A DNA stretch of 64,000 nt from Acidimicrobiales bacterium. GTDB taxonomy: Bacteria > Actinomycetota > Acidimicrobiia > Acidimicrobiales > SZUA-35. A program made the translations under genes and the position numbers. Where the stretch lies: NCBI GenBank assembly GCA_020629155.1, contig JAHDDW010000002.1, positions 1 to 64,000 of the forward strand, given 5' to 3'. The stretch's first letter is position 1; every line of letters begins with the position of its first letter. Positions 21,987 through 26,388 of the stretch are shown here, in pieces. The notes under the pieces were generated by a model that worked only from the letters and a program-made list of their open reading frames with translations, did no database searches and was not told the DNA's origin.

Positions 21987-22862
21987 TTAACGTTGCCCTG
22001 ACAGTAAATTCTTGTAGAAATCCTGAGGTTCTGCGAAAAATCGTTTCCACAGCCCTGTTGATTCCAAAGATTCAAACGTTGTTTGTTTGGTTCCTGTTTC
22101 GGCGTTTAGCTCAAAAACGTGGGCACCTGGGAAGGCCATCAGCAATGGAGAATGTGTAGAAATAATAAATTGTGAGCCTTTCGCAAGTGACTGACTCATC
22201 AACGCACAAAACGACATGAGGCCTTGTATCGAAAGCGCAGATTCAGGCTCGTCAAGCAGATAAAGCCCTGCGCCACTGAAACGACTGGCTGCTAGGTCTA
22301 GGAATGATTCGCCATGTGAACGGTGGTGAAATTTGGGGAACGTTGGGGCGAGATGTTCGTCTTCTTCGATATGGCTAGCCATGCCATAAAACGTTTCAGC
22401 ACGCAGAAACCAGCCCCATCGCGGATTGCGATTCCATTCCAGCACAAGGTGGTCAGCGAGTGAGCTGTGCGTATCATGCGTTGCGAAGCGCAAGTTGCGG
22501 CTTCCGCCCTCTGGGTTGAACCTGGCGATAATCGCTATGGCTTCAAGTATTGTTGATTTACCAGCACCGTTGTTGCCCGCAAGAATGTTCATCGGCCCAA
22601 AGTTAAGCTGATCGAGCGTTTGTACAGCTGGCAAGTCAAGGGCGTAGTCGTTCGAGGCTTCGTCATCTTCTGACTGATTCGGTTCACCCTGCTCAGGTTT
22701 GTCATCAACTTTGTCTTGATACCAATCAGGAAAGTCGTTTTTGTCCCATTCATCGTCACTGCCATCGGTTTCCTGGCCAGTTGGTTGATCCACAGGTTCT
22801 TCAATCGGTTGATCGTTCAGCCGAACTCGACGGAGGAAAGGCGCGTCGCTTTTAGTGACCAT
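21987..22862 (-). CDS. AAA_21-type ATPase
   Basis: A 291-residue ABC-like/RecF-like ATPase. P-loop GNNGAGKST is at 96-104, a SHGESFLDL signature follows, and Walker B LYLLDEPESALS and the STHSPLL switch come later. This is the form seen in putative ATP-binding proteins of the YddK/AAA_21 group, often alone in genomes. Residues 20-72 are a very acidic, low-complexity insertion rarely seen in this family. No partner nuclease or permease is next to it. Function unknown. Confidence 0.85.
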   Translation of the reverse strand: MVTKSDAPFLRRVRLNDQPIEEPVDQPTGQETDGSDDEWDKNDFPDWYQDKVDDKPEQGEPNQSEDDEASNDYALDLPAVQTLDQLNFGPMNILAGNNGAGKSTILEAIAIIARFNPEGGSRNLRFATHDTHSSLADHLVLEWNRNPRWGWFLRAETFYGMASHIEEDEHLAPTFPKFHHRSHGESFLDLAASRFSGAGLYLLDEPESALSIQGLMSFCALMSQSLAKGSQFIISTHSPLLMAFPGAHVFELNAETGTKQTTFESLESTGLWKRFFAEPQDFYKNLLSGQR

Positions 22863-24616: not shown

Positions 24617-24709
24617 GACAAGTAGTTAACACACCAAAACCCTTAGATGGTTTTTAGGAAGATCTACCTGTTTTCTTTGTCTTTGCGCGACTGTTGCCGA
24701 TCGAGATCT

Positions 24710-25945
24710 ATGAAGCAGCTACCAACTCCAGACAAAGGGCGGTTTCAGGCGTCGCGTTTCGTCGCGACGTACTTAGCCGATCTATGTTCTGACCAAAGCG
24801 ATGGTTCGCCGACAATTCGAGGCGGGCAAGAGGCTGCAAACAAAGCGTTAGCAGCTTTCGATGTTGCTGGGTATCACAAAAGTCGTGAAGAGGTATACCC
24901 AATTAGATCTCGTTCAGTTTCGACCCTATCGCCATGGGTAAGCCATGGCTTGTTGTCGTTGGAACAACTTTGGGACTATGTTGTCGACGGCCCAGCAGAA
25001 GATGTAGCTGCTTTCAGAACAAACCTATTATGGCAGGAGTACGCTCGTCATTGGTATAGCCGCCGTGAACCTACACCTCTAAACCGCCGCGCTGGTGATG
25101 CGACACACCACATAGATCATTCAATGGGCTGTATTGAGCTCACAGTTGACGAACTTGAAGAAGACGGCTGGATGCCGCATGAAGCTCGGCGTTGGTTCGC
25201 CAGCGATTGGGTTTCGAGACTAGGCAATAACTGGCAGGAAGGCGCAGACTATTTTCAACGGCACTTGATTGACGGATCCGAAGCGGCTAACCAGTTAAAC
25301 TGGCGACTAGCGAGTGCTTCGGCGCGACAGTTCTCGCGTTGGCAAGTTGAGGAGCGCGCTCCAGGTCTATGCGCTTCGTGCGAAAGAGGCACGACGTGTC
25401 CGGTGGAAAGGTGGCCACAAACGCCATGGAATAGTTCTATCGCAGATGTTCAAATAGAAAGTCAGCGTTTTGCCAGTGTACAACCCGATCTGCTTTCGGG
25501 TGGCGGCGAACCGACAGCGGTGTGGCTACATCCTCAATCGTTAGGAGATAATGATCAGGCGTTGACAGCCTACCCCTCGTTGCCTGCCGTGTTTGTATTC
25601 GATGAGGCCAGCCTTCGTGAAAAAAAGTTTTCTTCTAAAAAACTAATTTTTTGGATTGAGACTTTGGCTGAACTCAGCGAAAAAAGAGAGGTTCGTTTGT
25701 GGCGTGGCGAACGTTCAAAAATCTTATCGGGGGAAAATCTGGCCGCTACTGCTATTCCTACGCTTCGATGGAAACAGGCGGCACAGCCACTTGAAATAGC
25801 AAAATTGTTTCCATGGCGTTGGCTAGTTACGCCTACTGGGGGTTCAGTCACAACGTTTGCTGCTTGGCGTGAATCTACTGGAATCACAAATGAGTTTTTG
25901 CTGAAACAATTCGCCACTTTTGCACAAGAATTAAGCTACCTTTAA
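24710..25945 (+). CDS. Photolyase/cryptochrome-like protein with permuted domain order
   Basis: A 411-residue protein. Residues 55-215 resemble the photolyase FAD-binding domain: VSTLSPWVSHGLLSLEQLW, FRTNLLWQEYARHW, EEDGWMPHEARRWFASDWVSRLGNNWQEGADYFQ and the LIDGSEAANQLNWRL loop. Residues 268-400 resemble the Rossmann-type antenna domain (AVWLHPQSLGDNDQALTAYPSLPAVFVFD), which in ordinary photolyases comes first. Between them CASC and C at 221, 224 and 230 could bind metal or an Fe-S cluster. DNA repair or light sensing are both possible. ATG at 24710 is preferred because the upstream 21 codons look non-coding. Confidence 0.75.
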   Translation: MKQLPTPDKGRFQASRFVATYLADLCSDQSDGSPTIRGGQEAANKALAAFDVAGYHKSREEVYPIRSRSVSTLSPWVSHGLLSLEQLWDYVVDGPAEDVAAFRTNLLWQEYARHWYSRREPTPLNRRAGDATHHIDHSMGCIELTVDELEEDGWMPHEARRWFASDWVSRLGNNWQEGADYFQRHLIDGSEAANQLNWRLASASARQFSRWQVEERAPGLCASCERGTTCPVERWPQTPWNSSIADVQIESQRFASVQPDLLSGGGEPTAVWLHPQSLGDNDQALTAYPSLPAVFVFDEASLREKKFSSKKLIFWIETLAELSEKREVRLWRGERSKILSGENLAATAIPTLRWKQAAQPLEIAKLFPWRWLVTPTGGSVTTFAAWRESTGITNEFLLKQFATFAQELSYL

Positions 25946-25950
25946 TTGTA

Positions 25951-26388
25951 ATGGATATGGCAAATCGGTCGCACGAACCATATAGCATCGAGATAGAAAT
26001 TCCGTCTCGCGTCAATATGGTTTCTGTCGTGCGGATGATTGTGTCTGCCGCCACAAATTCTGTCGGCGCTCTGCATGGTGAACGCCTTGACGATCTTCGA
26101 TGGGTCACTTCTGAAGCGACAACAAACGCTATTCAAGCAAATCAGTCAACCAACCCTAGCGCTACGGTTAAGGTTACATGCGAGATTAATGACGGGCTAG
26201 TGCGCCTCATCGTGCAAGACAAAGGGCCAGGTTTGCCATCATTGATGAATGTGCCTGCTATCACAAACCCTGAACGTCTTGACATTGAAGGCTCATTCGG
26301 CATTCCACTTATTGAACATTTGAGCAGCAGCGTCAGCTTCCGATCAGAACCAACAGGCACAACCGTCGAAATGGAACTAGAACAGTAG
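25951..26388 (+). CDS. RsbW-like anti-sigma/HATPase_c_2 protein
   Basis: A 145-residue GHKL ATPase of the anti-sigma-factor type. N box EATTNAIQANQ, G1 box DKGPGLP and G2-like GSFGIPLIEHLSS are present. Such proteins phosphorylate anti-sigma antagonists or bind sigma factors. No sigma factor or STAS protein is next to it, so its partner is elsewhere. It starts 5 bp after the photolyase-like gene and is probably in the same transcript. Confidence 0.8.
   Translation: MDMANRSHEPYSIEIEIPSRVNMVSVVRMIVSAATNSVGALHGERLDDLRWVTSEATTNAIQANQSTNPSATVKVTCEINDGLVRLIVQDKGPGLPSLMNVPAITNPERLDIEGSFGIPLIEHLSSSVSFRSEPTGTTVEMELEQ

Follow-up and report, generated by a model that had tools for sequence, protein, structure and literature searches.

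The 64,000-nucleotide stretch of Acidimicrobiales DNA analysed here (the window) contains an open reading frame in which motifs of a photolyase FAD-binding domain precede a Rossmann-like half. The question is whether this gene encodes a photolyase whose two domains have changed places and, if so, what the protein does. The gene and its domains are as follows.

24710..25945, + strand: coding sequence of the inverted-domain photolyase (FAD domain followed by alpha/beta domain), 411 amino acids, with a start that agrees with that of relatives (MxxLPxP...)
24710..25417, + strand: catalytic FAD-binding helical domain, residues 1-236 (Pfam PF03441; hhalign to canonical photolyases, 3.4e-26)
25481..25894, + strand: alpha/beta (Rossmann/HUP) domain of the photolyase antenna type, residues 258-395 (profile alignment, AlphaFold, Foldseek)

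Relatives start at the position of the ATG at 24710, which leaves a longer frame from the ATG at 24647 unsupported. A single scan of species genomes yielded 37 loci, titled mostly Acidimicrobiia, Acidimicrobiales or Actinomycetota. The main alignment (A1) holds 35 sequences, and the wider residue comparison 83 (82 relatives and the window protein). A1 has 46 invariant columns (n=35), C141, C221, C224 and C230 among them. Two loci (L019 and L021) lie on contigs titled Spirochaeta and Deltaproteobacteria; their proteins nest among those of Acidimicrobiia and the contigs are probably mislabelled MAGs.

The N-terminal half is a photolyase FAD domain. All A1 members (35/35) match Pfam FAD_binding_7 (PF03441), and it was a profile of residues 1-236 (A4) that gave the 3.4e-26 alignment with the canonical photolyase FAD domain. 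Profile searches of the PDB returned the CPD photolyases 1tez and 1owl (class I) and 4u63 (class III) as best matches, so that class I/III CPD photolyases are the nearest relatives of the family's FAD domain. The alignment with the canonical FAD domain ends past the WQW motif, the domain being C-terminally truncated relative to class I photolyases, and a family-specific ending, YGFSRWQVEKRAPGLC..C.....CP, replaces the remainder. The window protein retains the FAD residues Y55, S71, L73, S74, W108, R160, D188 and N194 as well as the electron-transfer tryptophans W175 and W198.

Single-sequence Pfam and NCBIfam scans of the window protein missed the C-terminal domain, and profile-profile comparison was needed. 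A profile of residues 258-395 (A2) aligned with canonical class I photolyases over their residues 5-156, the whole N-terminal domain (6.4e-8, score 57); reversed, column-shuffled and FAD-part controls scored 11-19. The domain lacks the RDLR motif and ~20 residues of its canonical counterpart. AlphaFold on A1 produced a confident model (pLDDT 87, pTM 0.89) with five strands in the C-terminal half. For the domain folded alone, the best two PDB matches in Foldseek were both M. mazei class II photolyase (probabilities 1.00 and 0.99, TM 0.53 and 0.52), followed by universal-stress-protein folds. Structure prediction, which the original prediction had proposed as a check, thus placed photolyases on top, but with weak E-values (0.012 and 0.025). 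Weak matches of the C-terminal half to Pfam DNA_photolyase occur in 3 of the 35 A1 members. In two canonical photolyases of other genomes (G194:C60 and G036:C33) one and the same ORF is matched upstream by the C-terminal part of the family model and downstream by its FAD part, so the domain order is truly reversed. It is most improbable that the protein instead joins a short FAD domain to a Rossmann-like C-terminal half of unrelated origin: searching PDB sequences with the profile of this half gave nothing significant and the Foldseek values are modest, with other folds close behind, but the cleanly controlled alignment covers the entire canonical N-terminal domain, three members weakly match the Pfam model, and the family model matches the N-terminal domain of canonical photolyases. 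Kinship with the N-terminal domain of PhrB/DPRP was considered and rejected (profile alignment, 0.2).

FAD-first order is found in 35/35 A1 sequences and in the other full-length relatives. With both halves homologous to canonical domains by profiles and structure, the predicted order is confirmed: in the protein of the window ORF the photolyase FAD domain leads and a photolyase alpha/beta domain follows. The condition named beforehand as refuting it, a C-terminal half that is no photolyase Rossmann domain, was put to the test and did not apply.

A CASC-x5-C element at the join of the two domains had been noticed as a possible cofactor site. It belongs to a set of four cysteines.

25130..25132, + strand: Cys141, the first of the cluster cysteines, opposite the 'TxMxC' cysteine of FeS-BCPs (PhrB C350) in the alignment
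25370..25399, + strand: C221-x2-C224-x5-C230, the other three predicted [4Fe-4S] ligands, spaced as C254/C257/C263 of Synechococcus RS9916 Phr4

C141, C221 and C224 are kept in 82/82 relatives and C230 in 81/82, and the CxxC-x5-C spacing holds in 83/83 sequences. In a profile alignment with Acidimicrobiia FeS-BCP homologues, C141 falls on the TxMxC cysteine and C221/C224 on the CxxC, and C230-P was matched by motif to the FeS-BCP alignments A5/A6. The cluster cysteines of PhrB are Cys 350, 438, 441 and a fourth (PMC3204975). Because the four conserved cysteines align with those of FeS-BCPs, a [4Fe-4S] cluster is predicted for the family, and the cofactor proposal gains Cys141 as its fourth putative ligand. 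CxxC Fe-S cysteines are absent from the DPRP/PhrB-type photolyase homologue in the window's own genome (L040, G000:C5) and from those of ~1 Mb genomes (L087, L090, L091, L095, L102 and L107).

The order of the domains had been read as opposite to that of known photolyases and as a new class of variation; neither holds, since reversed forms were already published as NewPHL in 2020, SPL in 2021 and Phr4/Phr5/Phr6 in 2022. Haney et al. 2022 (PMC9426592) describe Phr4/Phr5 (two genes) and Phr6 (one gene) of marine Synechococcus/Cyanobium, with the FAD domain first and the photolyase domain second, and with cluster cysteines C169, C254, C257 and C263 in RS9916 Phr4. Compared by description, these proteins resemble the window protein in both domains, in the four cluster cysteines and in the same CxxC-x5-C set, which lies ~80-85 residues past the first cysteine (C141/C221/C224/C230 in the window). 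As order and cysteine spacing are shared, the architecture is a known one, to which the window protein adds a new member. In marine Synechococcus/Cyanobium the protein is often split in two genes, whereas the window gene is fused, its lesion pocket is changed and its family is linked to a kinase gene (see below).

Two further published groups compare as follows. PMC9649867, PMC9498864 and PMC9178010 describe SPL (Xu et al. 2021) as proteins with an FAD domain of class I/III type, without an alpha/beta domain at the N-terminus and, in some cases, with four cysteines, all as in the window protein; they also describe SPL as without an alpha/beta domain, whereas the window protein has one at its C-terminus. 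PMC13274461, citing Emmerich et al. 2020, gives NewPHL/SPL an inverted domain topology. NewPHL, with its FAD domain first (PMC13274461; PMC9426592), has a C-terminal 'Z-domain' and no cluster cysteines, unlike the window protein, in which the cysteines are present and the C-terminal domain matches the N-domain of canonical photolyases in profile alignment. A mark of NewPHL is that it repairs CPDs in single-stranded DNA. FeS-BCP/PhrB proteins share the four homologous Fe-S cysteines and a related FAD domain (4.8e-9), but carry a PhrB-type N-terminal domain (PF04244) in canonical order. No such domain precedes the FAD domain of the window protein, its C-terminal domain is unlike it, and the family pocket is of CPD type. 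Class I CPD photolyases are homologous in both domains; relative to them the order is reversed, cysteines are added, the C-terminal part of the FAD domain is replaced and RDLR is lost. The window protein is an Acidimicrobiia member of the reversed-domain photolyases, set beside Phr4-6, SPL and NewPHL by architecture, cysteine spacing and FAD-domain kinship. As a member of this recently recognised kind it is ordinary but well conserved, with a notable loss of the lesion pocket in this copy.

These comparisons suggest a single architecture behind proteins that were published under three names. Proteins called short photolyase-like, reportedly including R. fascians SPL, may carry the alpha/beta domain at the other end rather than lack it, a point of relevance to the view that they are primitive ancestors.

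What the protein does was approached through the residues that contact the lesion.

25022..25024, + strand: Asn105 at the CPD-binding Glu position, which we take to be E274 in E. coli numbering; E or Q in every other member of the protein family
25178..25192, + strand: His157 and Arg161, where photolyases have Asn and Met (WLVNQTRMW in the family, WMPHEARRW in the window)
25307..25309, + strand: Leu200 where WQW has its second Trp, a lesion contact (residue comparison)

At the five CPD-contact positions the family reads E-W-N-M-W, and 73 of the 83 sequences show no loss. Where (6-4) enzymes carry His, CPD photolyases carry Asn, and a Glu of theirs bonds the 5' pyrimidine (PMC3204975). Because the family has Asn, not His, and Glu, not Gln, at two pocket positions, CPD repair is favoured, and the family as a whole is most likely a CPD photolyase. 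Haney et al. predicted (6-4) activity for the Phr4-6 form from its Fe-S cysteines (PMC9426592); the CPD-type pocket seen here runs against that prediction.

The window protein is very probably an inverted-domain photolyase of the SPL / Phr4-Phr6 / NewPHL kind, with an FAD domain and four-cysteine Fe-S site followed by an alpha/beta domain. Domain order, the homology of both halves and the conservation of FAD, Trp and Cys residues are established by the analysis, while cofactors, activity and antenna are inferred. Light would excite the reduced FAD, recharged via W175 and W198; an electron would pass from FAD to a pyrimidine dimer held in the E-W-N-M-W pocket, splitting the ring. The [4Fe-4S] cluster may be structural or redox-supporting, and the C-terminal domain would cap the FAD domain and perhaps carry an antenna.

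The window copy departs from this scheme in its pocket, which reads N-W-H-R-L, four of the five contact residues being changed. Just past Leu200 lies a 4-residue loop deletion; another alignment puts the gap at the Trp itself. Since the flavin and cluster sites are kept and four of five lesion contacts are not, we would expect a light-reactive flavoprotein, and on balance these changes suggest that the window copy no longer does ordinary CPD repair. Nor is it the genome's sole photolyase, as a canonical photolyase (L038) and the DPRP homologue are also present. Pocket losses, in the window protein and in similar copies, go beyond the literature consulted.

The changed pocket might reflect a shifted substrate preference, for example towards (6-4) photoproducts. 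His157 sits at the catalytic His position of (6-4) photolyases, a residue common to these and to FeS-BCPs (PMC3204975), but Arg161 occupies the place of the second (6-4) His, WQW has lost its second Trp, and Asn at the Glu/Gln position is unlike any (6-4) enzyme considered. We therefore regard an altered-substrate photolyase as improbable.

Pocket losses affect seven sequences, and on the tree about five changes are most parsimonious, of which at least two are forced. All pocket-loss sequences that bear a taxonomic family label belong to the window's family. The presence of a canonical photolyase, found in 34 of the 39 genomes of that family, was considered as a clean explanation of pocket loss and rejected, one genome (G590) being without one and having lost the pocket anyway. 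Most members of the same taxonomic family have a kinase gene directly downstream on the same strand, at 4-474 nt; we found no mention of this linkage in the literature consulted.

25951..26388, + strand: HATPase_c_2 protein, a SpoIIAB/RsbW-like anti-sigma serine kinase, 5 nt past the photolyase stop (Pfam PF13581, 2e-18)

The kinase gene matches TIGR01925 at 1.4e-14, below the curated cut-off, and its ATP-binding motifs are conserved. In the flanks of inverted photolyases outside the window's taxonomic family it was not found.

Because the kinase gene is linked to the photolyase in this family, some copies could be inverted cryptochromes, photoreceptors in which a change induced by blue light at FAD (or the Fe-S cluster) would be passed to the RsbW-like kinase and on to a sigma factor. 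It fits this reading that FAD, Trp and Cys residues are kept while the lesion pocket is lost, that the loss arose several times within the kinase-linked family, and that the kinase keeps its ATP-binding motifs. Most photolyase-kinase pairs, however, retain an intact CPD pocket, so the linkage needs no sensor; neither a partner sigma factor nor a gene for an anti-anti-sigma factor came to light; and a protein of the same genus (G572) has lost FAD residues too, with the kinase gene absent from its examined flank. We regard such photoreceptors as unlikely, and hold it a shade less likely still that the pocket-less, flavin-bearing copies act as cryptochrome-like sensors on the RsbW/SpoIIAB-like kinase, a light input to a partner-switching stress pathway. 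If the pocket losses mean new functions, photolyases would have turned into sensors several times independently in this family, with a gene for a candidate output adjoining.

Relaxed constraint in the window's genus, with the canonical photolyase doing the work and the inverted copy drifting towards loss, is a further reading, which we rate as unlikely. At ~115 columns conserved to at least 90%, the window protein has 29 changes and its two genus-mates 24 and 55, against a median of 2; the three are the most divergent of the protein family (the window second, the genus-mates first and third) and lie on long branches in the tree. The protein of G572 (L162:2873-4081) is an intact 403-amino-acid ORF with all four cysteines and has lost FAD-site residues (S74P, W108E and D188G equivalents), a loss that would suit decay. 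The ORFs are nevertheless intact over ~400 codons in all three genus members, the four cysteines persist even in G572, a retention that plain decay would not favour, and the third member (G573) keeps E-W-N-L-W. A light-reactive flavoprotein that has given up ordinary CPD repair is the reading we prefer for the window copy.

The inverted photolyase is present in 26/396 genomes of the phylum, 35/248 of the window's order and 38/39 of its family. Among 198 genomes of the class, full-length matches occur in 35 genomes of one genus (~0.6-1.1 Mb, GC ~0.30), sampled members of which gave no canonical DNA_photolyase (PF00875) match above the cut-off. Reversed-domain photolyases are thereby extended to a broad range of Actinomycetota, streamlined ~1 Mb genomes included. 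Viral contigs held no relatives, and phage records gave canonical-type matches over the FAD part only. Outside the phylum, alphaproteobacterial relatives from Ruegeria, Peteryoungia and Niveispirillum have no CxxC...C cluster cysteines and so fit NewPHL. Deinococcus plasmid proteins are full-length relatives; on a plasmid of Deinococcus sp. QL22 the FAD and alpha/beta domains are two genes overlapping by ATGA (L118:1312-2085 and 2082-2603), a split comparable to Phr4/Phr5 in another phylum.

Two further genes were also noted. In a ~1 Mb low-GC genome of the class, the end of the inverted photolyase gene is overlapped by a gene for an F420H2-dependent quinone reductase (L164:2649-3119, - strand); the deazaflavin 8-HDF, which is known as a photolyase antenna, is common to F420 chemistry. 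In the window itself, an ORF at 21987-22862 (- strand) has a long acidic N-terminal stretch and weakly matches ABC-type and RecF/SMC-like ATPases at both ends.
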